Source: Streptantibioticus cattleyicolor NRRL 8057 = DSM 46488 (GTDB lineage: Bacteria; Actinomycetota; Actinomycetes; Streptomycetales; Streptomycetaceae). From it: a DNA stretch of 64,000 nucleotides. Shown here in pieces: positions 23,658 to 61,055 of this stretch. The notes under the pieces were generated by a model. The model was not told the origin of the DNA. It ran no database searches and saw only the letters and a list, made by a program, of their open reading frames with translations. Each line of letters opens with the position of its first letter. Within the stretch, counting starts at the first letter, position 1. The translations under genes and the position numbers were made by a program. The stretch spans positions 434,001-498,000 of the forward strand of contig NC_017585.1 in NCBI RefSeq assembly GCF_000240165.1. The letters run 5' to 3'.

Positions 23658-24716
23658 ATGACCGGATCACCCGTGGTCCTGGGCATCGAGTCGTCGTGCG
23701 ACGAGACGGGGGCCGGTCTGGTGCGTGACGGGCGGTTGCTGGGGCACGCCGTGGCGTCGAGCCTGGACGAACACGCCCGCTACGGCGGGGTGGTGCCCGA
23801 GATCGCCGCCCGGGCGCATGTGCGCGCGGTGGGCCCGGTGGTGCGCCGGGCGCTGGACGAGGCCGGGCTGCGGCTGCGCGACGTCGGGGCGGTCGCCGTC
23901 ACCACCGGCCCTGGGCTGGCCGGCGCGCTGCACATCGGGGTGGCGGCGGCCAAGGGTTACGCGTACACGCTGGGCGTTCCGCTGTACGGGGTGCACCACC
24001 TGGCCGGGCACGCCGCCGCCGACACGCTGGTGCACGGTCCGCTGCCGCAACCTTGTGTCGTCCTGCTCGTCTCCGGCGGCCACACCTCGCTGCTGCTCGT
24101 CCGCGACCTCGCCCGTGACCGGGTGGAACACCTCGGGGACACCCTCGACGACGCCGCCGGGGAGTGCTTCGACAAGGTCGCCCGGGTGCTGGGGTTGCCG
24201 TATCCGGGCGGTCCGGCGGTCGACCGGGTGGCCCGGGACGGCGACCCGCACGCCGTCCCCCTCCCCCGGCCGCTGACCGGGCCGCGCGACGACCCGTACG
24301 CCTTCTCCTTCTCCGGGCTGAAGACGGCGGCGGCCCGGTGCGCGGAGGCGGGCGGCCGTCAAGTCGCCGACGTGGCCGCCTCGTTGCGGGAGGCCGTCGC
24401 CGACGTGCTGACCCGCAAGGCCGTCGCCGCCTGCCTCGACCACGAGGTGGGCACCCTGGTGGTGGTCGGCGGCGTCGCGGCCAACTCACGGGTGCGCGAA
24501 CTGGCCGGGCAGCGGTGCGCCACGGCCGGGATCACCCTGCGGATTCCGCCGCCGGGGCTGTGCACGGACAACGGCGCCATGATCGCCGCCGTCGGTGACC
24601 TGCTGGTCCGCGCCGGGGCACGGCCGGCCCCCTGGCCGGTCTCGGTCGACCCGTCGGCACCGCTGGAGTTCGCGGCGCTCCACCCGGTACCGTCCGGCGG
24701 CGCACTCGCGGCGTGA
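23658..24716 (+). CDS. tsaD: tRNA N6-adenosine threonylcarbamoyltransferase (TsaD family)
   Basis: 352 residues from ATG 23658 with GGGAGGCGAG upstream. Family motifs: [31 protein letters not shown], the metal-binding HHLAGH near residue 114, [47 protein letters not shown] and CTDNGAMIA. TsaD transfers threonylcarbamoyl to A37 of ANN-decoding tRNAs together with TsaB and TsaE. The partner genes are not nearby, unlike the usual tsaB-rimI-tsaD operon, so this is probably a relocated or second copy. Confidence 0.9.
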
Positions 24717-27806: not shown

Positions 27807-30734
27807 ATGAGCGAGGTGACCGGGGTCCGCGCCATCGAGGCGACCCGGACCCGGCTGCGGTTCGCGCTGCTCGGCCCGGTGCGTGTGTGGCACGGTGACC
27901 AACCGCTGCCCGCCGGCTCGCCGCAGCAACGCGCCGTCCTCGCCGCGCTGTTGGTCAACCACGGCCGCCCCATGACCGCTGACGACCTGATCGACGCGGT
28001 GTGGGGCGACGATCAACCCAGTCAGGTGCTGGCGGCGGTGCGCACCTACGCGGCCCGGCTACGCAAGATCGTCGGTCCCGGGACACTGGTCTCCGAGGCA
28101 GGCGGCTACGTGCTGCGGGTACCGCCGGAGGCGCTGGACCTCACGCACGCCGAGAGGCACGCCCTGGAGGCCGAACGGGCGTCGGCCGCCGGCGACCACA
28201 CCCGCGCCCGCCAACTGCTCACGGACGCGCTGGACCTGTGGGACGGGGAGGCGCTCACCGGGGTGCCCGGCCCGTTCGCGGAGACCCAGCGGACCCGGCT
28301 GGCCGAATGGCGGCTCACCCTGCTGGAACGCAGGCTGGAGGCGGACCTGGAGCGCGGGGCGCACGCCGAGGCGGCCTCCGAACTGACCGCGCTCACCGCC
28401 GACCATCCGCTGCGGGAACGGCTGCGCGCCCTGCTGATGCTGGCGCTCTACCGGGACGGCCGGCAGGCCGAGGCGCTGGCGGTCTACACCGACACCCGCC
28501 GCCTGCTCACCGATGAGCTGGGCGTCGAACCCGGTTCCCAGCTCAGGGAGATCCAGCAACGCATCCTGCGGTCCGACCCGGAGCTGCTGCGCGAGGAACC
28601 CGCCTCCGCCACGCCGCCCGTCCCGGCCCCCGCCGCGCCCGTGGTCCCCGCGCAACTCCCGCGCCCGATCCCGCACTTCCACGGACGCGAGGCCGAGATC
28701 CACCGCCTCACCGCGCTGCTCACCGCCTCCGACGAGCACGGCGTCCCGGTGCACGTGATCACCGGGCCGCCCGGGGCGGGCAAGTCGGCGCTCGCCTGCG
28801 TGGTGGCCCACGAGGTCGCGGAGGCCTACCCGGACGGGCAGCTCCACCTCGATCTGCGGGGTTCCGGGGGATCTCCGCTGGAACCGGCGCGGGCCCTGGA
28901 GGCGTTGTTGTGGGGTCTGGGGGCCGGCCCCGAGGGGCTGCCCGCGGACGCGGCGCTGCGGGCGGCGCTGCTGCGTACGGTGCTGGCCGGGCGGCGGGTG
29001 CTGATCGTGCTGGACGACGCCGAGGACGCCGAGCAGGTGCGGCCGTTGCTGCCCGGCACCCGGGGATGCGCGGTGCTGGTGACCGCCCGTGGCCGGCTGC
29101 CGGAGCTGTCCGGGGTGGACCGCACCGAACTGGGGCCGCTGGACCCCGACTCGGCGCTGCGGCTGCTGGCGGCGCCGGCCGGACCGTTCCGGACACAGGA
29201 GGAGAGAGCGGCGGCCGAGGAGATCGCCGTCGCCTGCGGTTTCCACCCGCTGGCGCTGGAGATCGCGGGCTCGCTGCTGGCCGCCCGCCCCGGCCGGCCG
29301 GTGGTCCGGCTCGCCGACGCACTGCGCGACGGTGACCGACGGCTGGCCCGACTGCGGCACGGGCGGCGGTCGTTGGAGGCCGTACTCGGCGAGCACTACC
29401 GGCGGCTCCCCCCCGACCAGGCGCACGCCCTCCGCCTGCTCGCCCTGGCGCCGCCCGGGTCCGTCCTCTCCCTCGACGCGGCGGCAGCCCTGCTCGACAC
29501 CGGTCCCTCGACGGCGGAACACACCCTCGACGCCCTCACCGACCTCCACCACCTGCGTCCGGTCGGCACCCGGGGGTACGAACTCCCCGTGCCGCTCGGC
29601 GACTTCGCCAGGTTCCGCGCGGCCGACGCGGAGAGCCCCGCCGACCGGCGCGCCGCGCGCTCGCGGCTGCTCGGCTTCCACCTCGCGCTGGCCACGGCCG
29701 CGTACGCCGTGGAAAATCCGGGCGACCCGCTGCCGCGCCACCTCGCCACCCCCGGCCACCCGGCACCGCACCTGGCCACCCGCGAGGAGGCCCGCCAACG
29801 GGTCGACGACGAGCTGGCGTTGTTGTGGGCCACGGTGGAGCGGACCGTCGCGGAGGACGACCCGGACGGGACGACGCTGCGCCGCGCGGTGGACGCGCTG
29901 CTGGCCGCCGGGGCGCCGGAGCGGGGTGCCACCGCGTGGCAGGCGGAGCGGGTGCTGCGGGCGGTGGTGGCGGCGTCGGCGGCACGGCACGAGCCGGCCG
30001 CGGAGGGCAGGGCGCGGTTGCTGCTGGGCCATCTGCTGGCGGACGCCGGGCGGTTCGGGGCGGCGTGGGAGGAGGCCGTCCGTTCCCACCGGCTCGGGGC
30101 GGCCCACGGTGACCGGTGGTGCGCGGGGTACGCCGCCGTGCTGCGGGGCCGGCTCCGCGATCCGGAGGGCGCCGCGCTGCTGCGTTCGGCGTCCGATGTC
30201 TTCCGTGCCGAAGGCGACGCCTACGGTGAGGCGGCGGCCCTCGGCATCCTGGCCCGGACCGGCGATCCTGGCCCGGAGTCGGTCGAACGGGCGCGGCGGG
30301 CGGTGGAGTTGTACGCCCGCGAGGGGGCCGGCGCCCGCGCCGCCGACGGCCACTACGCGCTCGGCGTGGTGTTGTGCCGGACCGGCGCCGACGACGAGGC
30401 GCTGCCGGAGCTGGAGCGCGCCGCCGACCTCTTCCGGCAGGGGGTACGGCCGCTCGGCGCGGCCATGGCGTCGCTGCGTATCGCCCGGGTGCACCGCGCC
30501 GCCGGCCGGTCCGGTGCCTGCGTCGAGGCGGCGGGGCGTGGTGTGTCGCTGCTGCGGGCGCTCGGCCACGATTACCGCACGGCGTACGGGCTCGGCGTCC
30601 TCGGTGACGCGCTCGCCGGGGACGGCCGGCTCGACCGGGCCCGCGACTGCCACCTGGAGGCCCGGGCGCTCGCCGCCGCGCTGGAGGCCCCGGCGGCGGA
30701 ACGCGTCCTGGCGCTCACCGGGGCCGCGGCGTAG
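27807..30734 (+). CDS. AfsR/SARP-family transcriptional activator (OmpR-type HTH, BTAD, NB-ARC, TPR)
   Basis: 975 residues from ATG 27807 (AAGGGGG upstream). Order: winged-helix DNA-binding domain at about 15-100 (LRFALLGPVRVWHGDQPLPAGSPQQRAVLAALLVNHGRPM, YVLRVPPEALD), bacterial transcriptional activation domain at about 105-250 (ALTGVPGPFAETQRTRLAEWRL, LMLALYRDGRQAEALAVYTDTRRLL), a Pro-rich linker, NB-ARC ATPase with Walker A GPPGAGKSALA and Walker B VLIVLDDAED, then TPR-like helices to the end. SARPs activate antibiotic clusters; the acyl-carrier cassette at 31.5-37.1 kb is the obvious local target. Confidence 0.92.
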   Translation: MSEVTGVRAIEATRTRLRFALLGPVRVWHGDQPLPAGSPQQRAVLAALLVNHGRPMTADDLIDAVWGDDQPSQVLAAVRTYAARLRKIVGPGTLVSEAGGYVLRVPPEALDLTHAERHALEAERASAAGDHTRARQLLTDALDLWDGEALTGVPGPFAETQRTRLAEWRLTLLERRLEADLERGAHAEAASELTALTADHPLRERLRALLMLALYRDGRQAEALAVYTDTRRLLTDELGVEPGSQLREIQQRILRSDPELLREEPASATPPVPAPAAPVVPAQLPRPIPHFHGREAEIHRLTALLTASDEHGVPVHVITGPPGAGKSALACVVAHEVAEAYPDGQLHLDLRGSGGSPLEPARALEALLWGLGAGPEGLPADAALRAALLRTVLAGRRVLIVLDDAEDAEQVRPLLPGTRGCAVLVTARGRLPELSGVDRTELGPLDPDSALRLLAAPAGPFRTQEERAAAEEIAVACGFHPLALEIAGSLLAARPGRPVVRLADALRDGDRRLARLRHGRRSLEAVLGEHYRRLPPDQAHALRLLALAPPGSVLSLDAAAALLDTGPSTAEHTLDALTDLHHLRPVGTRGYELPVPLGDFARFRAADAESPADRRAARSRLLGFHLALATAAYAVENPGDPLPRHLATPGHPAPHLATREEARQRVDDELALLWATVERTVAEDDPDGTTLRRAVDALLAAGAPERGATAWQAERVLRAVVAASAARHEPAAEGRARLLLGHLLADAGRFGAAWEEAVRSHRLGAAHGDRWCAGYAAVLRGRLRDPEGAALLRSASDVFRAEGDAYGEAAALGILARTGDPGPESVERARRAVELYAREGAGARAADGHYALGVVLCRTGADDEALPELERAADLFRQGVRPLGAAMASLRIARVHRAAGRSGACVEAAGRGVSLLRALGHDYRTAYGLGVLGDALAGDGRLDRARDCHLEARALAAALEAPAAERVLALTGAAA

Positions 30735-31532: not shown

Positions 31533-31793
31533 ATGACCGATCAGCGCACGCCGTACGACGTGTTGCTCACCGTGCTGGCGGAGAAGTTCGAGGTCGATCC
31601 CGGCCGTCTCGAACCCGACACCACGGTGGAGAACCTGGACCTGGACTCCATCACCCTGGTGGAACTCGTCGTCGTCCTCTCCGACGAACTCGGTGCGGAG
31701 ATCGACGAGAACACACTCACCGGAGACCTCACGCTGCGCGAGGTGGCCGGGGTCCTCGAGGACGCCACCGGCGCGCGGCGGGGCGGCCGGTGA
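31533..31793 (+). CDS. Acyl carrier protein
   Basis: 86 residues; ribosome binding site GGAGGTGA 7 bases before ATG 31533. The phosphopantetheine attachment site is Ser39 in LDLDSITLVEL, in a four-helix ACP fold (VLLTVLAEKFEVDPGRLEPDTTVENL, LVVVLSDELGAEIDENTLTGDLTLREVAGVL). It would carry the acyl chain loaded by the FAAL at 33064. First gene of a coupled six-function operon; stop overlaps the ketosynthase start as GTGA. Confidence 0.92.
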   Translation: MTDQRTPYDVLLTVLAEKFEVDPGRLEPDTTVENLDLDSITLVELVVVLSDELGAEIDENTLTGDLTLREVAGVLEDATGARRGGR

Positions 31794-33019
31794 CCGCCGG
31801 CCCCGCCGAGGTCGTGGTCACCGGCGTCGGGCTGGTGACCCCCGCCGGGATCGGCCGGGAAGCCACCTGGGAGGGGGTCTGCGCGGGCCGCCCGACCGCC
31901 CGCCGCGACCCCGAACTCGACGGCCTGGACGTGGACTTCGCCTGCCGGGTGCCCGGATACCAGCCACGCGAACACACCCCGGGCGGCCGGCCCTGGCAGT
32001 ACGACCGCTACACCCAGTTCGCGCTGACGGCCGTGACGGAAGCGGTGGCCGACGCCCGGCTGGACCCGGCGCGCTGGAACGGCGACCGGGTGGCCGTCGT
32101 CTTCGGCACCGCCGCCGGCGGCACCGCCTCCCAGCTGGAACAGCACCGCACCCTCCTCGCCGACGGGCCGGGCCGGGTCTCGCCGATGCTGCTGCCGAAG
32201 TACCTGCCCAACATGGCCTGCGGGCACATCGCCATCCGCCTCGGCGCGCGCGGGCCGTCGCTGAGCACCTCCACCGCGTGTGCCTCCGGGGCCACCGCGA
32301 TCGGCACCGCCTGGCAGTTGCTGCGCAGCGGTGCCTGCGACATCGCGGTGGCCGGCTCCGCCGAGGCGTCGGTGCTGCCGCTCTGGGTGGCCGGCTTCAA
32401 CCGGATGGGCGCGCTCTCCCGGCGGCGGGCGGATCCGGCGACGGCCTCACGCCCGTTCGACGTGGACCGGGACGGTTTCGTGATGGGCGAGGGGGCCGGC
32501 GCGGTGGTGCTGGAACGCGCCGAGGACGCGCGGGCCAGGGGGTGCCCCGGGCGCGCGGTGCTGGCGGGGTACGGCGCCGCCACCGACGCCGTCCACGCGG
32601 TGGCGCCCGATCCGGACGGGCGCGGGGTGACCGGTGCGATGCGGGCCGCGCTGGCCGCCGCGCACACCCCGTTCGAGGCGGTGGACCACATCAACGCGCA
32701 CGGCACCGGCACACCCCTCAACGACGCCGCGGAGGCCGCGGTGATCCGCCGGCTCTTCGGCCACCGGCCCACCGTGACCTCGGTCAAGGGGGCGCTGGGC
32801 CATCTGCTGGGGGCGGCCGGGGCGGTGGAGGCGGCGCTCACCGCGCTCACCGTCGAGCGCGGCATCGTCCCGCCGGTGGTCAACCTGCGCCGCCAGGACC
32901 CGGATCTGGAGATCAACGCCGTCACCGGCGACTGTCGCAAACAGCGGATCGACGTCGCCATCAGCAACTCGTTCGGCTTCGGCGGACACAACACGGTGCT
33001 GGTCTTCCGCGCCCGCTGA
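31790..33019 (+). CDS. Beta-ketoacyl-ACP synthase II-type (KAS/FabF family)
   Basis: 409 residues from GTG 31790. The full catalytic triad is present: Cys164 in TACASG, His304 in HGTGTPLND, His338 in GALGHLLGAAG. GEGAGAVVLE and the C-terminal NSFGFGGHN are also seen. It should catalyse decarboxylative Claisen condensation of an ACP-bound chain with malonyl-ACP. A single KAS without a chain-length-factor partner or dedicated ketoreductase in the operon suggests one or a few elongations or use of primary-metabolism reductases. Confidence 0.93.
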   Translation: MTAGPAEVVVTGVGLVTPAGIGREATWEGVCAGRPTARRDPELDGLDVDFACRVPGYQPREHTPGGRPWQYDRYTQFALTAVTEAVADARLDPARWNGDRVAVVFGTAAGGTASQLEQHRTLLADGPGRVSPMLLPKYLPNMACGHIAIRLGARGPSLSTSTACASGATAIGTAWQLLRSGACDIAVAGSAEASVLPLWVAGFNRMGALSRRRADPATASRPFDVDRDGFVMGEGAGAVVLERAEDARARGCPGRAVLAGYGAATDAVHAVAPDPDGRGVTGAMRAALAAAHTPFEAVDHINAHGTGTPLNDAAEAAVIRRLFGHRPTVTSVKGALGHLLGAAGAVEAALTALTVERGIVPPVVNLRRQDPDLEINAVTGDCRKQRIDVAISNSFGFGGHNTVLVFRAR

Positions 33020-33063
33020 CCCCCGCCCGCTGCCGAACGCGACCAGGAGAGGCTGTTTCCGCC

Positions 33064-34746
33064 ATGAACATCGTCGCGGGCCTGCGCACCTGGGCCGCCG
33101 ATCCCTCCTCCGAGCGTTGTCTGACGTTCCTCACCGGCGGTGAGGGCAGCGTCCGGGTGACCTTCGGCGAGCTGGACCGGCAGGCGCTGACGATCGCGCG
33201 ATGGCTGTCCGCGCTGGGCCGCTGCGACCGGCCGGTGGCGCTGTTGTATCCGGCCGGGCTCGACTTCACCGCCGCGTTCCTCGGCTGTCTGTACGCCCGG
33301 GTGCTCGCCGTGCCGCTGCCGATGCCGCGGGCGGGCCGTCCGACGAAGGCACTGCGGGCGCTGATGCGGGACGCCGGGGTGGAGCTGATCCTCACCGACC
33401 AGTCCCAACTGGCCCCGCTCACCGTGGAGTTCCCCGAGGTGCCGGTGCGGGTCGCCGGGCTCGCCGCCCCGGTGGCGGACGGCACGGAGGAGTGGACGCC
33501 GCCGTTGCTGCGCCCGGACACGGTGGCCTACCTCCAGTACACCTCCGGCTCCACCAACGATCCGCGCGGGGTGGAGATCACCCACGGCGCGCTGGAACAC
33601 AACCTGACGACGATCCGTACGCTGACCGGTCCGGCGTTCCCGCGGCGGCTGGCCGGCTGGCTGCCGCACCACCACGACATGGGGCTGGTGGGGCTGCAAC
33701 TGCACGCCCTGCACGCCGGGGCCGACCTGGTCCTCACCTCGCCGTCGTCGTTCGTGGCCCGGCCGGTGCGCTGGTGGCGGATGGTCAGCCGGTACCGGGC
33801 GCAGCTGACGGTGGCCCCCGACTTCGGTTACGCCTGGAGCAGCCGGGTCGCCGAAGCGGACCTGGCCGGGCTGGACCTGTCGTGTCTGCGGTACGCGTTC
33901 ACCGGGGCCGAACCCGTCCGGGCGGACACCTTGGCGGCGTTCGAGCGGCGTTTCGTCCCGGTGGGCTTCGACCCCGCGGCGTGGGTGCCGTGTTACGGCA
34001 TGGCGGAGGCGACCTTGCTGGTGACCGGGGTGCGGCCGGGTGAGGGGGCCACGGTGCGCCGCTTCCACACCGGTCATCTGGAGCGCCACCGGGCCGTGCC
34101 GGACGCCGGCGGCACCCCGCTGGTCTCCTGCGGCCGGCCGGCCGGTCTCGAAGTGCGGGTGGTGCAGCCGCATTCGGGGCGGGAGTTGCCGGAGGGCGAG
34201 GTCGGCGAGATCCGGGTGGCCGGGCCCAGCGTGGCCCGTGGTTACCACGGCCGGGTCAGGGAGAGCAGGCAGACCTTCCGGGCCGGTGACGGCCGCTGGC
34301 TGCGCACCGGGGACCTGGGGTTCCGGCTGGACGGCGAGTTGTATGTGACCGGGCGGCTGAAGGACACCCTGATCGTCAACGGCCGCAACCTGTATCCGCA
34401 GGACCTGGAGCACGCCGCCGCCGAGGCGCACGCGGCGGCCGGGCAGGGCGCCGCGTTCGCCGTCACCCCGCCCGGCGGGCGGGAACACGTGGTGCTGGTG
34501 CAGGAGGTGCGGCGGGGACACGCGGCGCAGGCGGCGGAGGTCTCCGACCGGGTGCTGGACGCCCTCACCGCCGCCTTCGGGATCCCGCTCAGCCTGGTGG
34601 TGGTCGAGCAGGGCGGGGTGGCCCGTACCACCAGCGGCAAGGTGCGGCGGCGGCACATGCGCGATCTGCTGCTCGCCGGTGAACTCGCGCCGTTGCACGC
34701 CGCGTTGCAGCCGGCGGTGGCCAAGCTGACCGGGGTCCCCTCGTGA
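33064..34746 (+). CDS. Fatty acyl-AMP ligase (FAAL; adenylate-forming enzyme)
   Basis: 560 residues from ATG 33064 with AGGAGAGG upstream. Adenylation motifs: P-loop-like YTSGSTNDPRGVEITHG, GWLPHHHDMGLVG (typical of FAALs), CYGMAEATLLVTG, GEIRVAGPSVARGYHG, LRTGDLGF, GRLKDTLIVNGRNLYPQDLE and TSGKVRR with the catalytic Lys. The HHHDMGL and NGRNLYPQDLE signatures mark the FAAL branch, which makes acyl-AMP and passes it to an ACP rather than CoA. It would charge one of the two ACPs of the operon with a free fatty acid. Confidence 0.93.
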   Translation: MNIVAGLRTWAADPSSERCLTFLTGGEGSVRVTFGELDRQALTIARWLSALGRCDRPVALLYPAGLDFTAAFLGCLYARVLAVPLPMPRAGRPTKALRALMRDAGVELILTDQSQLAPLTVEFPEVPVRVAGLAAPVADGTEEWTPPLLRPDTVAYLQYTSGSTNDPRGVEITHGALEHNLTTIRTLTGPAFPRRLAGWLPHHHDMGLVGLQLHALHAGADLVLTSPSSFVARPVRWWRMVSRYRAQLTVAPDFGYAWSSRVAEADLAGLDLSCLRYAFTGAEPVRADTLAAFERRFVPVGFDPAAWVPCYGMAEATLLVTGVRPGEGATVRRFHTGHLERHRAVPDAGGTPLVSCGRPAGLEVRVVQPHSGRELPEGEVGEIRVAGPSVARGYHGRVRESRQTFRAGDGRWLRTGDLGFRLDGELYVTGRLKDTLIVNGRNLYPQDLEHAAAEAHAAAGQGAAFAVTPPGGREHVVLVQEVRRGHAAQAAEVSDRVLDALTAAFGIPLSLVVVEQGGVARTTSGKVRRRHMRDLLLAGELAPLHAALQPAVAKLTGVPS

Positions 34747-36326
34747 GCGCGGTGACCGGGCTGCGGGCCCGCTTCGCCCATCCGCTCGCCCTCGCCCTGG
34801 ACGAGCGGGACGCCTTCCCGGAACGGGCCTGCCGGGACCTGGAGGAATGGGGGATGCACCACTACTACGTCCCGGCCCACCTCGGCGGGCGGCTCACCTC
34901 GTGCCCGGAGTTCCTGGGGCTGATCCGGGTCGTCGCGGCGCACGACCTGACGGTGGCGATCGCGCACTGCAAGACGTTCCTGGGCGCGGTGGCCACCTGG
35001 GTGGCCGGCACCCCGGAGCAGTCGCGGTGGCTGGCGGGGCAGATCCTGGCCGGCACCCCGGTCGCGCTGGGGCTGACCGAACGCGGCCACGGCAGCGACC
35101 TGCTCGCCGGGGAGACGACCGCCCGGCCGGTGCCCGGCGGCTACCGGCTGGACGGCGAGAAGTGGCTGATCAACAACGCCACCCGGGCCCCGCTGATGTC
35201 CGTACTGGCCCGCACCGTGCCGGACGGCGGCCCCCGGGGCTTCGACGTCCTGCTGGCCGACCGGCGGACCATGGCCGAGGGCGACTACCGCCTGCTGCCC
35301 AAGGAGTACACCCACGGCATCAGGGGCGCCGACATCAGCGGCATCCGCTTCCGGGGTGCCTTCGTCCCGGACCACCACCGGGTCGGCCCGCCCGGTTCGG
35401 GTCTGGAGACGGTGCTCAAAGGGCTCTTCCTCACCCGGATCCTGTGCACCGCGCTCTCCTTGGGGGCGGCGGAGCACGCGCTGCGCATCGCCGCCCGGCG
35501 CGAGGCGCACACCGCCGCGCGCCGCCGGATCCTCGCCGACGCCTACGCCGACCTGCTCGGCGCCGAGGTGCTGGCACTGCTGGGCGCCCGCGCGATCCAT
35601 CTGCTGCCGGGCGAACTGTCGCTGCTCAGCGCCGCGGTGAAGTACACCGTGCCGACCTGGGTCAACGAGGCGCTCGACGCGCTGGCGCGCTACCTCGGGC
35701 CGGACGCGGGCGACCCGATGTTCCGCAAGGTGCGCCGGGACGCGGCGCTCGTCGGGCTCTTCGACGGCAGCACAGTGGTCAACCTGGCCGCGATCGCCAA
35801 CCAGTTCGCCGTGCTGGCCGGCGGCCGGCGGGGCGCCCGTCCGCTGCCGGAGGCGCTGGCCGACGTGCGGTCCGCCCCGCCGCCGGGGTGGGACGCGCAA
35901 CGCATCACGTTGCTGTCGCCGCGCGGGCTGTCGCTGCTGAACGGGCTGCCGGACCGGGTGGCGCTGCTGCCCCCCGGTGACTGCGCCCTGCTGGGCCGGC
36001 GGCTGGCCGCGCTGACCGCCGTCGTCCGCGCCGGGCTGACCCCGCCCGGGCCGCGTCCGTCGGCCGCCCACTTCGACGCGGCGGCGCGGCTCGCCTGCTG
36101 TGTCGCCGGGGCGGCGGCGATCGAGGTGTGGCTGGCCAACCGCCGCCACGCCACGGGTCCGTTGTGGCACCAGGGCACCTGGCTGGCGGCGGTGCTGACC
36201 CGGGTGCTGACCCGGCTCGGCGAGCGGCCGTCGGGCGACCCGGGACGCGACCGGCTGCTGTGTACGGTGGTGGCCGAACGCGTCCGGGCCGGCGCCCCGC
36301 TCTCCCTCGTCGAGGACCCGCGGTGA
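34743..36326 (+). CDS. Acyl-CoA/acyl-ACP dehydrogenase-like flavoprotein
   Basis: 527 residues from GTG 34743 (4-base overlap with the FAAL gene). ACAD fold: N-terminal helices (FPERACRDLEEWGMHHYYVPAHLGG), FAD-binding strands (ALGLTERGHGSDL, GEKWLINNATRAPLM), C-terminal helices (TRILCTALSLGAAEHALRIA). At the site of the usual catalytic Glu (YEGT) it reads LFDGST, so Asp may be the base. About 140 residues longer than standard ACADs. It probably introduces a double bond into the carrier-bound chain, as ACAD-like enzymes do for lipopeptide tails. Confidence 0.87.
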   Translation: MSAVTGLRARFAHPLALALDERDAFPERACRDLEEWGMHHYYVPAHLGGRLTSCPEFLGLIRVVAAHDLTVAIAHCKTFLGAVATWVAGTPEQSRWLAGQILAGTPVALGLTERGHGSDLLAGETTARPVPGGYRLDGEKWLINNATRAPLMSVLARTVPDGGPRGFDVLLADRRTMAEGDYRLLPKEYTHGIRGADISGIRFRGAFVPDHHRVGPPGSGLETVLKGLFLTRILCTALSLGAAEHALRIAARREAHTAARRRILADAYADLLGAEVLALLGARAIHLLPGELSLLSAAVKYTVPTWVNEALDALARYLGPDAGDPMFRKVRRDAALVGLFDGSTVVNLAAIANQFAVLAGGRRGARPLPEALADVRSAPPPGWDAQRITLLSPRGLSLLNGLPDRVALLPPGDCALLGRRLAALTAVVRAGLTPPGPRPSAAHFDAAARLACCVAGAAAIEVWLANRRHATGPLWHQGTWLAAVLTRVLTRLGERPSGDPGRDRLLCTVVAERVRAGAPLSLVEDPR

Positions 36327-37141
36327 ACCCGGCCCACGCCGCGCTGCGGGAGGCCGTGCGCTTCGCCGCCGCCCGGCGGCTGTACGGGACGGTGATCCTG
36401 GAACTGCCGCACGTCCGGGCCACCCTCGCCGGGGCCTTCGCCGATCTGCTCGCCGCCGACGCCGCGCCCGACCCGGCGACTGCGTACCGGCTGCGCACCG
36501 GGGCGTTGCGCGAGCTGGCCGTGGTGATGGGCGCCCGCGGCTACCTGCGCGGCGGCACCCACGCCGCGTTCGGCGCCACCATGTGGACGCTGCTGGGCAC
36601 TCCCCCGCCGCCGGACGATCCGGCCGGCTTCGACGCCGGGCTGCTCCAGGCGGCCCGGCACGCGCTGATCCGGTGGCGGGCCGCCCGGCGCCTGGGCCAA
36701 GGCGACTTCCGTGCCGACGGCCACTGGATCAGGGCCGTCCTGCTGCGGGTGGCCGGCCACCGCTCCGGCGCCGTCCGCCCGCTGCCCGACCCGCTCACCG
36801 AGGCGCTGGTCACCGTACTCACCCACCCCACCACCGGCGGCCCGGAACCCTGCGGGCCACCGCCGACCCGACAGGAGGCCCCCATGTCCGAAGCGGACAT
36901 CCGGCAATGGCTGACCGGACGGATCGCCGGCCACCTCGGCATCGCCCCCGAAGAGATCGACCCCGGCGTCAAACTCCGCACCTACGGCCTCGACTCGCTC
37001 GACGCCATGACCCTGTGCGTGGACATCGAGGAGGAGTACGGCCTGACCGTCGAGCCCACGCTGGTGTGGGACCACCCGACCGTGGAATCCATCGCCGGTC
37101 GGCTGGCGTCCCTGCTGGCGACGGCTTCGACGGGGCCCTGA
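36323..37141 (+). CDS. Half-length ACAD-like domain fused to an acyl carrier protein
   Basis: 272 residues from GTG 36323 (overlaps previous stop as GTGA). Residues 1-165 resemble only the C-terminal helical bundle of acyl-CoA dehydrogenases (ALREAVRFAAARRLYGTVILELPHVRATLAGAFADLLAADA). Residues 188-272 are a PKS/NRPS-type carrier domain with Ser225 in YGLDSLDAM. There is no stop between them. A strong internal AGGAGG and in-frame ATG at 36884 would also yield the free 85-residue ACP, so two products are likely. The half ACAD may form a heteromer with the preceding 527-residue enzyme. Confidence 0.8.
   Translation: MNPAHAALREAVRFAAARRLYGTVILELPHVRATLAGAFADLLAADAAPDPATAYRLRTGALRELAVVMGARGYLRGGTHAAFGATMWTLLGTPPPPDDPAGFDAGLLQAARHALIRWRAARRLGQGDFRADGHWIRAVLLRVAGHRSGAVRPLPDPLTEALVTVLTHPTTGGPEPCGPPPTRQEAPMSEADIRQWLTGRIAGHLGIAPEEIDPGVKLRTYGLDSLDAMTLCVDIEEEYGLTVEPTLVWDHPTVESIAGRLASLLATASTGP
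36873..36886 (+). promoter_or_regulatory. Internal ribosome binding site for the second ACP
   Basis: AGGAGG at 36873-36878, 5 bases before the in-frame ATG at 36884, exactly where the linker of the fused ORF meets the carrier domain. Indicates independent translation of an 85-residue ACP. Confidence 0.7.
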
Positions 37142-37201: not shown

Positions 37202-37864
37202 TCACCGCCGCGCCCTCAGCCCCTCGACGATCAGGTTCAGACCGAACTCGAAGAGCCGGGTGAAGTCCGTGCTGGTGAGCGCGGGCAGCCCGGCCGCAAG
37301 GTGCGCGTACGTCCCGCCCGCCACCGCGTCGGCGAGGAGGCCCGGGTCGGCCGGGCCGTCGTTTTCCCCCTGGAGGGCGGCCTGCTCCTCCAGGGTGTGG
37401 CCCACGGTGAAGTTGGCCAGGGTGTAGAGCGCCCGCGCCGCGTCGTCGTCGGGGAAGCCGGCCGCGCGCATGACGCCGACGACCGTGTCGGCGAAGCCCA
37501 GCATGTTCGCCCCCGTCGAGTGCGTACCGGCGAACACCCGCGCTCCGTCACGGCGGGAGAGCAGGGCCGCGCGCATCGCGCGGGCCAGGGCGGTCAGCCG
37601 CTCGCTCCAGTCGCCGCCGCACGTCCCGGCGGCGGCGTCCACGACGCCGTCCATCATGCGCTCGGCCATCGCCGCCAGCAGGTCCTGCTTGGTCGCGAAG
37701 TAGCGGTACAGCGCACCGGCCTGCACGTCCATCGCGTCGGCGAGCCGCCTCATGGTCAACGCGTCCAGCCCCGACCGGTCCAGCAGGTCGAGGGCTGTCC
37801 GCACGGTGCGCTCGCGGTCGATGCGCGCGGGCCGGCCGCGGGCCGGGCTTGACGGGGAACTCAT
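37202..37864 (-). CDS. TetR-family repressor (tetracycline-repressor-like C-domain)
   Basis: 220 residues from ATG 37864. HTH at residues about 15-60 (RTVRTALDLLDRSGLDALTMRRLADAMDVQAGALYRYFATKQDLLAAM) is close to the TetR(class A-H)-type DNA-binding head, and the C-terminal half (LYTLANFTVGHTLEEQAAL) fits TetR_C. Divergent from the FAD monooxygenase, with twin TGAACNNNGTTCA operators in the 66-base gap, so it most likely represses itself and that gene until a ligand binds. Confidence 0.9.
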   Translation of the reverse strand: MSSPSSPARGRPARIDRERTVRTALDLLDRSGLDALTMRRLADAMDVQAGALYRYFATKQDLLAAMAERMMDGVVDAAAGTCGGDWSERLTALARAMRAALLSRRDGARVFAGTHSTGANMLGFADTVVGVMRAAGFPDDDAARALYTLANFTVGHTLEEQAALQGENDGPADPGLLADAVAGGTYAHLAAGLPALTSTDFTRLFEFGLNLIVEGLRARR

Positions 37865-37930: not shown

Positions 37931-39439
37931 ATGGACGTCGATGTGATCGTCGTGGGCGCGGGACCGACCGGGCTGATGCTCGCGTGCGAGCTGGCCCTGG
38001 CCGGTGTGCGGACCCGGATCCTGGAGCGCCGTACCGAGCCGCGGCGGGACTCGCGGGCGCTCACCCTGCATCCGCGCAGCCTGGAGCTGATGGATCAACG
38101 CGGGCTGCTGGACCGGTTCCTGGCGCTCGGCCGGACCGTGCCCGGCTGGCACTTCGCCCAGCTCCCCACCCGTCTGGACTTCTCCGCGCTGGACTCCCGG
38201 CACGGCTACACCCTCTTCCTCGCCCAGGCCCGCACCGAGGCGCTGCTCGCCGAGCGGGCCCGCGAACTGGGGGCGCAGATCCGGTACGGGCACGAGGTCG
38301 TCGCCGTGAGCCAGGACGGCGACGGGGTCGAGGCGCGGGTACGGGGCCCCCGGGGCGACGAGACGTTCCGCGCCCGGTTCGCGGTCGGGTGCGACGGCGG
38401 ACGCAGCCGGATACGGGAGGCCGCCGGGATCGGCTTCCCGGGCACCGACGAGACACTCACCGGTGTGCTCGGCGACGTCGCCGTCATCGACGACGACCCG
38501 GCGGTCCTCGATGCGGCCCGGGCCCGTGGCGTTCTGGTCGCGCCGCTGGAGGACGGTCTGACCAGGCTGGTCTACGTGGACCCGGAACGGATGCGGGTGC
38601 CGGCCCGTGAGCCGGTGACCCTGGAGGAGTTCCGCGCGTCCCTGATCCGGATCTGCGGCTTCGACTGCGGTGTCGGCGAGCCCCGTTGGCTCTCCCGCTT
38701 CGGCAACGCCACCCGCCTCGCGGAGCGTTACCGCTCCGGCCGGATCCTGCTGGCCGGCGACGCGGCCCACATCCACTTCCCCGCGGCGGGCCAAGGGCTC
38801 AACACCGGCCTCCAGGACGCCATGAACCTCGGCTGGAAGCTGGCCGCCGCCGTCCACGGCTGGTCGCCGCCCGGCCTGCTGGACAGCTACGACGAGGAAC
38901 GCAACCCGGTCGGCCGGGCGGTCACCGGGAACACCGAGGTGCAGACGCTCCTCGCGGAGCTGACGCTCGTCCCCCAGTACCAACGCCCCGGTGCGGCACT
39001 CCGCGAACTCTTCGACGAACTCCTGCGCGTCGAAGAGGTCAACCGCGAACTCGCCGCCCAGGTCTCCGCGCTCGGCACCGCCTACCCGCCGACGAACCCC
39101 GGGGCCGACCCGCTGGTGGGACGGCGGATGCCCGACATCGGTTTCACCACCACCGCGTCGGAGGCGACACGGGTCTACGAGCTGCTGCCCCAGGGCCGGT
39201 TCGTCCACCTCGACCTCGCCGGCGACCCTCGACTCGGGGCGGTCGTCACAGGCTGGGGCCCACGCGTCACCGCCGTCACCGTCACCGAACGGGACGACCA
39301 CACGGACCTGGAGGGGGTGCGCGAAGTCCTCGTACGCCCCGACGGCCACATCGCCTGGGCCACCCGCACCGCCGACCTCGCCACGCGCCGCGACGAGCGG
39401 CACAACGCCCTCACCGCCTGGGCCGGGACGCCCTCCTGA
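37931..39439 (+). CDS. FAD-dependent aromatic monooxygenase (PheA/TfdB/PgaE type)
   Basis: 502 residues from ATG 37931, with GGGGAGG 9 bases upstream. Rossmann GxGxxG in DVDVIVVGAGPTGLMLACELALAG, the DG motif in AVGCDGGRSRIREAAGI, and the GD motif in RILLAGDAAHIHFPAAGQGLNTGLQDAMNLGWKLA define class A flavin monooxygenases, with a C-terminal thioredoxin-like domain. It hydroxylates phenolic or polyketide substrates using NAD(P)H and oxygen; some relatives inactivate antibiotics such as rifamycins or tetracyclines. Its tight TetR control favours detoxification of an inducing compound. Confidence 0.9.
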   Translation: MDVDVIVVGAGPTGLMLACELALAGVRTRILERRTEPRRDSRALTLHPRSLELMDQRGLLDRFLALGRTVPGWHFAQLPTRLDFSALDSRHGYTLFLAQARTEALLAERARELGAQIRYGHEVVAVSQDGDGVEARVRGPRGDETFRARFAVGCDGGRSRIREAAGIGFPGTDETLTGVLGDVAVIDDDPAVLDAARARGVLVAPLEDGLTRLVYVDPERMRVPAREPVTLEEFRASLIRICGFDCGVGEPRWLSRFGNATRLAERYRSGRILLAGDAAHIHFPAAGQGLNTGLQDAMNLGWKLAAAVHGWSPPGLLDSYDEERNPVGRAVTGNTEVQTLLAELTLVPQYQRPGAALRELFDELLRVEEVNRELAAQVSALGTAYPPTNPGADPLVGRRMPDIGFTTTASEATRVYELLPQGRFVHLDLAGDPRLGAVVTGWGPRVTAVTVTERDDHTDLEGVREVLVRPDGHIAWATRTADLATRRDERHNALTAWAGTPS

Positions 39440-58899: not shown

Positions 58900-58918
58900 C
58901 GTGGAGGTTTGAAGAGGC

Positions 58919-59080
58919 ACCTCGTTCGGTGAGGCGTCTGCACGGACACAGGCCACTGACCCCACGACGTCGAGAGACGCCCAGGGTCAGGACAGGTCTC
59001 CCCGGCCTAAGGGGTGACCCCAAGTGGCTTCCCCGGTACGGGGATCACGCCGTGGAGTGCCAAAGCTCTGACGAGTTGGG
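58919..59080 (+). promoter_or_regulatory. M-box (ykoK) Mg2+ riboswitch
   Basis: The leader matches the M-box aptamer in order: CTCGTTCGGTGAGGC at 58921, GGACACAGGCCACTGACCC, GAGAGACGCCCAGGGTCAG, a CCTAAGG-type element, and the hallmark AGTGCCAAAGCTCTGACGAG at 59056-59075. The P1 helix closes by CTCGT (58921-58925) with ACGAG (59071-59075). M-box RNAs fold in high Mg2+ and switch off Mg2+ transporters. It lies upstream of an Nramp-type transporter rather than the commoner MgtE/CorA. Confidence 0.85.
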
Positions 59081-59173
59081 GTGAGCCGGCCGCGTTGATG
59101 CGGGACCGGCCGCTCCTTGCCGAGTCGATGACGACGCGCACGGTCGCGTCCCGGCCGGAAGGAGGCGACAGAC

Positions 59174-59408: not shown

Positions 59409-61055
59409 ATGACCCACACCACCACGGCCACCCCGGTGGAAACCCCCCGCGCCACGGCGGTACTCGACGACGCGCACGTCGGCGACATCCGCGGAGCACT
59501 GGGCACCATCCGCCTCGACGACACCGCACCGCGCACCGGCCTGACCGCGAAACTCAAGACGCTGCTGGCGATCGTCGGCCCCGGACTGATCGTGATGGTC
59601 GGCGACAACGACGCCGGCGCGTTCGCCACCTACGGCCAGGCCGGCCAGAACTACGGCACCCACCTGCTGTGGACACTGCTGCTGCTGATCCCCGTGCTCT
59701 ACGTCAACCAGGAGATGGTCCTGCGCCTCGGCGCGGTCACCGGCGTCGGCCACGCCCGGCTGATCCTGGAACGCTTCGGGAAGTTCTGGGGCGCCTTCAG
59801 CGTCATCGACCTGTTCCTGCTCAACGCCCTGACCCTGGTGACCGAGTTCATCGGGATCACCCTGGCCGCCGGATACCTCGGGCTGCCCAAGGTGGCCGCG
59901 GTGGTCCTGGCCGCCGCCATCATCATCGCCTCGGCCTTCACCGGCTCCTTCCAGCGTTTCGAGCGGGTGGCCATCGCACTGTGCGCGGCCTCGCTGCTGC
60001 TGGTGCCGATCTACTTCATGGCCCACCCGGCCACCTCCACGATGGTCCACGACTTCGTGGTCCCCGGCATGCCGGGCGGCTCCGGCCAGCTGGCCACGGT
60101 GATGCTGCTGATCATCGGCATCGTGGGCACCACGGTGGCACCCTGGCAGCTGTTCTTCCAGCAGTCCTACGTCATCGACAAGCGCATCACACCGCGCTTC
60201 ATGAAGTACGAGAAGGCCGACCTGTGGATCGGCATCGCCGTGGTGGTGATCGGCGCCGCGGCCATGATGGGCTTCACCGCCGCCACCTTCGCCGGCACCG
60301 GCGGCCAGGGCCACTTCACCGACGCCGCCGGCATCGCCCACGGACTGGCCGCCCACGCCGGCAAACTGGCCGGAGTCCTCTTCGCCATCGCACTGCTGGA
60401 CGCCTCCATCATCGGCGCCTTCGCCGTCTCCCTGTCCACCGCCTACGCCATCGGAGACGTCCTGGGCCTGAAGCACTCCTTGCACCGCGGTGTCGGCGGC
60501 GCCAAGGGCTTCTACACCGTCTACGCCGCACTCGTGGCCGCCGCCGCCACGATCGTGCTGATCCCCGGCTCCCCGCTCGGCCTGCTCACCGAAGGCGTCC
60601 AGACCCTCGCCGGCGTCCTGCTGCCGTCCGCCTCGGTCTTCCTGCTCCTGCTCTGCAACGACAAAGCGGTCCTGGGCCCGTGGGCCAACGGCCCGAAGAC
60701 CAACGCCTTCACCTCCGCGGTCGTCGGCGTCCTGGTCACCTTGTCGGTCATCCTCACCGCCGCCGTCCTCTTCCCCGACATCTCCGCGAACACCATCCTC
60801 GACATCATGGCTGCCTGCGGAATCGCCGGCGTACTGGCCGCGGGGTACGCCTTCACCCGCCGCCGCACCGGCACCAAGGAGGACCCGATCGACCGCACCG
60901 GCCGGGACACCTGGCGGATGCCGCCCCTGCACACCCTGACCCGGCCCACCATGTCCACCGGCTACAAGCTCGGCATGGGTGCCCTGCGGACCTACCTGCT
61001 CATAGCGATGGTCCTGGTGATCTTCAAGATCGTCCAGGTCGCGCTCAGCCACTGA
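59409..61055 (+). CDS. Nramp-related Mg2+ transporter (NRMT-like)
   Basis: 548 residues from ATG 59409 with GGGAGG upstream. About eleven membrane helices after a 50-residue cytosolic head. Helix 1 reads GDNDAGA (residues 65-71), where Mn/Fe Nramps have DPGN: Asp68 is kept, Asn becomes Ala. Helix 6 reads APWQ (244-247) in place of MPHN, so the transition-metal-selective Met is Ala. These changes are those described for Nramp-related magnesium transporters. With the M-box upstream, Mg2+ uptake under low Mg2+ is the natural reading. Confidence 0.9.
   Translation: MTHTTTATPVETPRATAVLDDAHVGDIRGALGTIRLDDTAPRTGLTAKLKTLLAIVGPGLIVMVGDNDAGAFATYGQAGQNYGTHLLWTLLLLIPVLYVNQEMVLRLGAVTGVGHARLILERFGKFWGAFSVIDLFLLNALTLVTEFIGITLAAGYLGLPKVAAVVLAAAIIIASAFTGSFQRFERVAIALCAASLLLVPIYFMAHPATSTMVHDFVVPGMPGGSGQLATVMLLIIGIVGTTVAPWQLFFQQSYVIDKRITPRFMKYEKADLWIGIAVVVIGAAAMMGFTAATFAGTGGQGHFTDAAGIAHGLAAHAGKLAGVLFAIALLDASIIGAFAVSLSTAYAIGDVLGLKHSLHRGVGGAKGFYTVYAALVAAAATIVLIPGSPLGLLTEGVQTLAGVLLPSASVFLLLLCNDKAVLGPWANGPKTNAFTSAVVGVLVTLSVILTAAVLFPDISANTILDIMAACGIAGVLAAGYAFTRRRTGTKEDPIDRTGRDTWRMPPLHTLTRPTMSTGYKLGMGALRTYLLIAMVLVIFKIVQVALSH

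Follow-up and report, generated by a model that had tools for sequence, protein, structure and literature searches.

A putative free-standing lipo-initiation operon with a half acyl-CoA dehydrogenase and an added ACP-ketosynthase pair on the megaplasmid of Streptantibioticus cattleyicolor

The rotihibin cluster of Streptomyces scabies contains the genes RthH-RthI-RthJ-RthK, which encode a fatty acyl-AMP ligase (FAAL), two acyl-CoA dehydrogenases (ACADs) and an acyl carrier protein (ACP), and desaturation of the tail is attributed to the ACADs (PMC8552735). Rotihibin is drawn with one double bond, besides minor products 2 Da lighter (PMC8552735). In the taromycin (Tar5/Tar6), malacidin (MlcH/MlcI), friulimicin (LipB) and laspartomycin (Orf22) clusters the ACADs likewise lie between FAAL and ACP. 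The former two combine two ACADs with a diene, whose 4,5 double bond is assigned to the second ACAD, whereas the latter two possess a single ACAD (PMC9113097). This 2021 review states that no mechanistic studies had been reported for lipopeptide ACADs. An operon with the same FAAL-ACAD-ACAD-ACP order is located on the megaplasmid pSCAT of Streptantibioticus cattleyicolor NRRL 8057 (genome 8.1 Mb, two contigs). It occupies positions 31533-37141 of the window, i.e. the whole stretch of 64,000 nucleotides analysed here (bases 434001-498000 of the 1,812,548-base megaplasmid contig), and comprises six functions on the same strand. Its long ACAD shares 99.8% identity over the entire length with the pSCAT sequence, whose database record carries no gene annotation at this place. 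While the rotihibin ACP flanks the pentamodular nonribosomal peptide synthetase (NRPS) RthA (PMC8552735), the operon has no NRPS, carries an additional ACP-ketosynthase pair, and its second ACAD appears cut to the C-terminal domain. We incline, with somewhat better than even confidence, to regard it as an actinobacterial lipo-initiation cassette that stands free and has borrowed a pair of genes for chain extension, in which both ACAD genes would encode one heteromeric acyl-ACP dehydrogenase and the acceptor would be encoded elsewhere. The second ACAD of such cassettes is called ACAD2 below. The operon consists of:

31533-31793, plus strand: ACP1, 86 residues (Pfam PP-binding, 44 bits)
31790-33019, plus strand: KAS, a ketosynthase of the FabF/KAS II type, 409 residues (Pfam ketoacyl-synt, NCBIfam, motifs)
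33064-34746, plus strand: FAAL, 560 residues (Pfam AMP-binding, NCBIfam FAAL models)
34743-36326, plus strand: ACAD1, the long ACAD and proposed alpha subunit, 527 residues (Pfam Acyl-CoA_dh_M, alignment, AlphaFold2, Foldseek)
36323-36883, plus strand: half ACAD, the proposed minimal beta subunit, 187 residues (ACAD2 profile, AlphaFold2, VIA-align)
36873-36878, plus strand: AGGAGG, resembling a ribosome-binding site, 5 nt upstream of the ACP2 start codon and inside the half-ACAD frame (sequence)
36884-37141, plus strand: ACP2, continuing the half-ACAD frame but with an ATG of its own at 36884 (Pfam PP-binding, 60 bits)

Open reading frames (ORFs), Pfam, NCBIfam and, for the half ACAD, profile and structure model agree with a preliminary description of this DNA on the six functions, their order and their coordinates. 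Its statement that all are translationally coupled goes a little too far: three junctions are 4-nt overlaps (ACP1/KAS, FAAL/ACAD1, ACAD1/half ACAD), and half ACAD and ACP2 form a single ORF (36323-37141), but KAS and FAAL are separated by a gap of 44 nt. With an AGGAGG and an in-frame ATG of its own, ACP2 may be produced as a free protein, as a fusion or in both forms. Each ORF has a good codon-position composition score and possesses homologues, and each ACP has one carrier serine (in LDLDSITL and YGLDSLDA). The Cys/His/His triad of KAS is intact as described (TACAS at 162, HGTGT at 304, GHLLG at 337), and a carrier-bound activating and desaturating set accompanied by a ketosynthase is supported. 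The label "self-contained" is not supported: of the enzymes expected in a self-contained fatty acid synthase (malonyl transferase, ketoreductase, dehydratase, enoyl reductase and initiation ketosynthase) Pfam and NCBIfam scans detect none in the operon, nor do they detect a release enzyme, and the cassette usually stands in NRPS or polyketide synthase (PKS) clusters.

The half ACAD matches nothing in Pfam and, by sequence, nothing in the PDB. It scores 80.0 bits with a profile of 41 full-length ACAD2 proteins versus 40.9 bits with the ACAD1 profile, and covers ACAD2 columns 261-304, 334-362 and 495-554, i.e. the C-terminal helical part. The N-terminal domain, the FAD-barrel domain and the catalytic residue are absent; the RRLYG loop (36374-36388) is kept, as are six residues invariant among 35 ACAD2 C-terminal parts (R18, Y21, P29, L65, G70 and G78). 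The best VIA-align match of its AlphaFold2 model (mean pLDDT 91.6) is 3owa, with a root-mean-square deviation of 2.4 over 161 residues and a Z of 13.2, which is near the level reachable by chance among helical bundles. Foldseek alone yields weak E-values (best 0.048), with ferritins from rank 39. The 50 structural matches listed align with the half ACAD through their C-terminal domains, and we take all of them, in part by title, to belong to the ACAD superfamily. Residues 1-105 align to residues 262-386 of MCAD (1egd), and the matches include 4l1f, whose title names its flavoprotein partner. Given the profile match and the superfamily of the listed structural matches, the half ACAD is identified as the C-terminal domain of the partner ACAD2. 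Short ACAD2s occur in five further loci, L046 (243 residues), L043 (283), L041 (287), L034 (359) and L175 (372), all of them with NRPS or PKS domains.

ACAD1 falls just short of the Pfam cut-offs for the N-terminal (21.5 bits, cut-off 22.9) and the C-terminal ACAD domain (21.2 bits, cut-off 22.4), and its AlphaFold2 model (mean pLDDT 90.9) retrieves ACADs with Foldseek. In the alignment to 3pfd the Asp of its FDG motif (Asp341, codon 35763-35765) occupies the position of the catalytic base, where canonical ACADs have Glu. Asp is found there in all 119 ACAD1 profile matches, which come from 115 sources. Full-length ACAD2s have His at this position in 89 of 96 cases and an acidic residue (Asp) in three. 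As in heterotetrameric ACADs, one subunit has the catalytic acid and the partner does not, the half ACAD lacking the whole region. The column of the Thr of FQITR, which we take to be the position of the base in LCAD and IVD, is acidic in 0 of 96 full-length ACAD2s, whereas 89 of the 96 share a Glu located six columns ahead of FQITR. In LCAD and IVD the base lies on another helix (PMC11153573). The conserved His at the catalytic column of ACAD2 may be a different base, perhaps for a second double bond.

A further difference concerns a conserved loop of the C-terminal domain (R.LYG....LP), which is deleted outright from the ACAD1 of the window near residue 252. In ACAD2 the R-x-L-Y loop retains its Arg in 105 of 105 rows (Leu and Tyr in 104 each), a count without L056 and without L032, for which a fragment was picked. 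Among the 106 loci with both genes, again without L032, ACAD1 keeps the loop in 87, and none of these has an eroded or truncated ACAD2: the catalytic position of their ACAD2 is His (84) or Asp (3), the Lys of the flavin-domain motif is present in 87/87 and the G-N/S/G-D motif in 78/87. The loop is lost in the other 19, in 14 of which ACAD2 is truncated or without flavin motifs. A reduced set of 88 rows omits 22 near-duplicates and nine rows without ACAD2 that belong to other ACAD types (L275, L279, L280 and L281, twice each, and L282), and treats L032 as full. There the ACAD1 loop is lost beside all 13 eroded ACAD2s and beside 5 of the 72 that are not eroded, and is kept in all three rows without ACAD2. 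The ACAD2 erosions fall into six separate clades, 6/6 inside clades of ACAD1 loop loss (random placement: 1/20,000). An earlier split into short and full ACAD2s gave loop loss in 9/9 versus 10/76 (Fisher 2.2e-7), with L232 (AYG) counted as lost; it counts as loop-kept in the 106-locus and 88-row sets. Genes of the relatives were called by codon-position score, so that starts are uncertain and some ACAD1 rows over-extended, and the counts used profile domains. Four rows (L259, L260, L271 and L273) form an ACAD1 clade with the loop rewritten as ERIIQ or similar and with a full-length, motif-bearing ACAD2.

In ACADs the R-x-x-F-G arginine reaches the FAD bound by the adjacent subunit. If the loop of each ACAD serves the flavin of its partner, loss of the ACAD2 site leaves the ACAD1 loop free to decay, but not the ACAD2 loop, and the pattern of loss seen in the alignments fits such a reciprocal service. 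The alpha subunit of mycobacterial alpha2beta2 ACADs provides the catalytic Glu and binds the substrate and the isoalloxazine, and the beta subunit contacts the ADP-ribose of FAD (PMC11153573). From the co-degeneration of the ACAD2 flavin domain and the ACAD1 loop we infer that ACAD1 and ACAD2 form a heteromer with a split FAD site, of which the half ACAD would be a minimal beta subunit. Long and half ACAD, listed as two functions in the preliminary description, accordingly make better sense as a single heteromeric enzyme than as a pair of desaturases.

The operon could then work as follows. FAAL, as its family suggests, would convert a free fatty acid into the acyl-AMP and load it on ACP2, which is proposed to be both the carrier loaded by FAAL and the substrate carrier of the ACAD heteromer. 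Substrate pocket, flavin barrel and catalytic Asp341 would come from ACAD1. The half ACAD would contribute the R-x-LYG loop and the helical domain, completing the FAD site across the subunit interface. With one kind of active site, one double bond, probably 2,3, and no diene would be introduced. KAS would condense this chain, acyl or enoyl, with malonyl-ACP1, and primary metabolism would provide the malonyl transfer and any reductive step. The predicted product is a mono-unsaturated, perhaps two-carbon-longer (3-oxo) acyl-ACP, which would be passed to an acceptor encoded elsewhere. Full-length ACAD2s may be active through their conserved His, and we predict two kinds of site for pairs of full ACADs, in keeping with the taromycin and malacidin dienes, and a single kind for half pairs. 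A bolder version, possible but in our estimate rather unlikely, makes the second ACAD of tailoring pairs in general the cofactor-completing subunit, its minimal form of ~187 residues possibly tethered to ACP2, and the whole with ACP1-KAS an acceptor-free machine delivering a mono-unsaturated, chain-extended acyl-ACP for a lipid product. If this is true, the minimal beta subunit and the reciprocal loop loss in alpha amount to a new ACAD architecture.

The FAAL scores 319-357 bits with the FAAL models of NCBIfam, 311 bits with PRK07768 (named a CoA ligase) and 147 bits with the next CoA-ligase model, all under the curated cut-offs; its sequence is closer to FAALs than to acyl-CoA ligases. The top solved relatives are 7r7f and 3kxw, deposited under PKS/NRPS names and presumably FAAL domains, followed by FadD23, 3pbk (FAAL), FadD32 and FadD28. 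Membership of this family suggests a preference for ACP over CoA; a structural basis of acyl transfer by FAALs to holo-ACP with rejection of CoA has been described (PMC8460268).

The cassette FAAL-ACAD-ACAD-ACP is common: 46 loci were found in one scan, and 104 of 394 genomes of the family possess ACAD matches (own genome, weaker and second-ACAD matches counted). Of the 114 relative loci, 103 contain an ACP similar to ACP2. Within the DNA fetched, 84 of 108 other loci have an acceptor domain downstream of ACAD1, either an NRPS condensation (C) domain (46) or the ketosynthase (KS) domain of a type I PKS (38 more). In four loci a C domain stands at another place of the fetched stretch, and 20 show neither domain in it; for 16 of these 20, the downstream part amounts to less than 6 kb. 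This count leaves out the window and six of the 115 sources below the score limit, and keeps duplicates between collections. Profiles built from the genome's own domains detected neither an NRPS C domain nor a type I KS in the 64-kb window, their sole match being KAS itself. This bears out the earlier remark that no NRPS or PKS is adjacent.

A KAS at least 45% identical over 300 residues, or an ACP1 match, occurs in 0 of 114 cassette loci. Three scans yielded no full-length ACAD1 relative above 52% identity (partial matches reach 56%); in one of them, covering 394 genomes of the class, the best match is ~50% identical (E 1e-95). With neither ACP1-KAS in those loci nor a close ACAD1, the combined block is unique in the data searched. 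Whether the same block recurs in known lipopeptide or polyketide clusters, a question put by the preliminary description, has a divided answer: its FAAL-ACAD-ACAD-ACP part usually does, in the 84 loci above and in rotihibin, and the complete block with ACP1-KAS was seen in none of the 114 loci. By its gene content the operon is a chimera of two known modules, the lipo-initiation cassette and the ACP1-KAS pair.

KAS has the Cys-His-His site and the FabF-family sequence of a FabF/KAS II enzyme. It passes NF005589 (431 bits, cut-off 387) and misses TIGR03150 (441.5 bits, cut-off 493.75). Its best relatives, 69-70% identical and from five genomes of the family, belong to other clusters and are paired there with an ACP. 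In 27 of 33 KAS loci (the window's own included) the gene immediately upstream of KAS encodes an ACP. One such cluster (L161) contains a KAS III, E1 and E2 parts of a 2-oxoacid dehydrogenase and an NAD_binding_4 reductase, another (L164) an acyltransferase, an acyl-CoA-oxidase-like gene, two KAS III genes and an SDR gene. ACP1-KAS is therefore an independent pair, which occurs in other clusters resembling fatty acid synthases (FAS), and ACP1 is proposed as the extender carrier of KAS. A biotin-type cluster with its own ACP-KAS pair lies on the megaplasmid ~6 kb upstream of the window (L183 2396-8265, C1:422396-428265). It contains an aminotransferase class I/II (BioF-like), a P450, a radical SAM/BATS (BioB-like) and an AAA_26 (BioD-like) gene, and its ACP-KAS may feed a pimeloyl-ACP route.

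Several points weigh against the favoured reading. The KAS relatives of 69-70% identity are accompanied by KAS III genes (L161 type), which the operon does not possess, so that extension of the FAAL-loaded chain by KAS is only putative; KAS could instead serve the primary FAS or act as an acyltransferase. The classes "eroded" and "lost" were drawn post hoc from the alignment, row L232 was reclassified by eye, and the placement of ACAD1 in its tree is weakly supported (0.60). Five ACAD1 rows (L259, L260, L271, L273 and L274) have lost the loop beside a full-length, motif-bearing ACAD2, that of L274 being the one whose own loop is without LY; the rule of reciprocal loss thus has five exceptions one way (loop lost, ACAD2 intact) and zero the other way. 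Finally, no acceptor was found, either in the 64-kb window or by placing the genome's own C domains and KS in trees.

Supply of the tail in trans to an NRPS or PKS elsewhere in the genome, which differs from the favoured reading only in the fate of the product, is the strongest alternative, a serious contender that we put somewhat short of an even chance. The frequent C domain or type I KS downstream of relative cassettes (84/108) and a genome rich in such domains (31 Condensation and 65 ketoacyl-synt matches) speak for it. Trees comprised 26 of the 31 own C-domain matches together with the first C domains of the relatives, the rest being fragments or low scores, and 50 own type I KS rows of the 65 matches, two of them seen twice in overlapping stretches. 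Three own C domains attach on long branches as sisters to the two acceptor clades of the relatives (C2:3436 kb, support 0.958; C1:1776 kb with C2:3818 kb, 0.942; C1 is the replicon of the operon), but none of the 26 falls inside these clades. The KS at C2:56 kb is the own KS nearest to the relatives' acceptor KS clade (0.869). Its PKS possesses KS, acyltransferase and carrier domains and a thioesterase, but seems self-supplied, since a gene for an AMP-binding DIP2-like ligase adjoins. The nearest plasmid NRPS also speaks against this alternative, being ~80 kb from the operon and with C domains that group elsewhere. The NRPS at C1:550-560 kb was considered as acceptor and is not favoured.

A free or small lipid is a less probable outcome, though one to be reckoned with: the 3-oxo(-enoyl)-ACP would be released or handed to some non-modular enzyme, such as a butenolide synthase of the AfsA type, a ketosynthase III or a reductase. 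The added ACP1-KAS would yield just such a 3-oxoacyl-ACP, and the genome has AfsA-family genes (9 matches), but these lie elsewhere, and no AfsA, thioesterase or KAS III is found among the neighbours scanned. The Burkholderia compound AFC-BC11 is assembled by FAAL and KAS III without C domains (PMC12186527). In Streptomyces harbinensis (L055, 6654-17994) an ACP-FAAL-ACAD-ACAD set has SARP genes on both sides, followed by genes for an alpha/beta hydrolase, a methyltransferase and an FMO-like protein, and no C domain or type I KS occurs in the 21 kb fetched, so that such sets can stand without modules nearby. However, L055 has no KAS like that of the operon, and its second ACAD is full and acidic at the catalytic position (Asp, FDGA).

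It is improbable that the operon is an orphan relic, left decaying after loss of an NRPS or PKS with the half ACAD as first casualty. The missing acceptor, the long branch of ACAD1 (0.89) and the merging of half ACAD and ACP2 in one ORF agree with decay, but every ORF is intact with catalytic motifs, the half ACAD keeps its six invariant residues, and ACAD2s of 243-372 residues recur in the five NRPS/PKS loci named above. That the two ACADs desaturate independently of each other, the assumption made for taromycin and malacidin, is very improbable here. The number of ACADs does match that of double bonds (one in friulimicin and laspartomycin, two in taromycin and malacidin; PMC9113097), and full-length ACAD2s with their flavin motifs and conserved His may be active, but the half ACAD, with no flavin domain, substrate domain or base, cannot by itself be a second active dehydrogenase.

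The operon under the favoured reading, as a free-standing cassette with a heteromeric dehydrogenase, is flanked by:

27807-30734, plus strand: AfsR-like SARP regulator, 975 residues (Pfam BTAD 152 bits, NB-ARC)
37202-37864, minus strand: TetR-family repressor, convergent with the operon (Pfam, NCBIfam)
37931-39439, plus strand: FMO, a monooxygenase gene (Pfam, NCBIfam)

The SARP is present upstream as first described, and is termed AfsR-like only, its 850 bits with the AfsR equivalog model of NCBIfam not reaching the cut-off of 1430. A small minus-strand ORF without Pfam match lies between SARP and operon, and the TetR gene and FMO probably bound the operon on its downstream side. Further neighbours scanned comprise AraC-type regulators, a DUF2269 protein, a D-Ala-D-Ala carboxypeptidase, an NmrA-like protein, TetR and SDR genes, one SDR gene being located ~6.5 kb downstream of the operon on the opposite strand; by their families none resembles a lipid acceptor. 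The window furthermore contains a second TsaD-like gene (tRNA t6A enzyme; 23673-24716, plus strand; 388.5 bits, cut-off 296.1) on the megaplasmid, the other copy being at C2:3910385 (421.6 bits). An M-box (magnesium) riboswitch (58914-59087, plus strand, 131.8 bits) lies upstream of an Nramp-family transporter gene (59409-61055, plus strand), a hint that this Nramp protein moves magnesium.

No published product of the operon was found in the open-licence literature, in searches mostly not aimed at this organism. The ACAD pair occurs in several lipopeptide clusters and, in the loci compiled here, in many FAAL-started NRPS/PKS clusters. If the state of ACAD2 (absent, full or half) predicts one or two double bonds, tail unsaturation becomes readable from sequence. 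The stripped-down second dehydrogenase suggests how two-gene ACADs share one cofactor site, and the operon offers a compact, NRPS-free enzyme set for reconstitution.

Beyond the lipopeptide cassettes, parallels are found for single parts of the operon. Both subunits of the mycobacterial alpha2beta2 ACADs ChsE4-ChsE5 and ChsE1-ChsE2 are full-length ACADs. Like the proposed pair they combine a catalytic subunit with a partner that completes the FAD site, but they act on CoA esters, whereas the operon would use an ACP carrier and a beta subunit reduced to the C-terminal domain (PMC11153573). The FAS-like clusters L161, L164 and L168 share with the operon a KAS (62-70% identical) and the ACP directly upstream; they carry KAS III, acyltransferase, ketoreductase or 2-oxoacid dehydrogenase genes (L168 by sequence only), while in the operon the pair is joined to a FAAL-ACAD cassette. 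Jamaicamide JamA and stand-alone FAALs provide the sequence of steps proposed here, i.e. loading of an ACP by FAAL, carrier-bound desaturation and then extension, but the jamaicamide pathway uses a desaturase and its own PKS/NRPS, in contrast to the flavin ACAD pair of the operon with no modules nearby (PMC11837247). The assembly of AFC-BC11 in Burkholderia resembles the operon in combining a FAAL with a carrier protein and an enzyme of the ketosynthase type and in doing without C domains, and differs by an A domain, a KAS III-like release enzyme and a different chemistry (PMC12186527).

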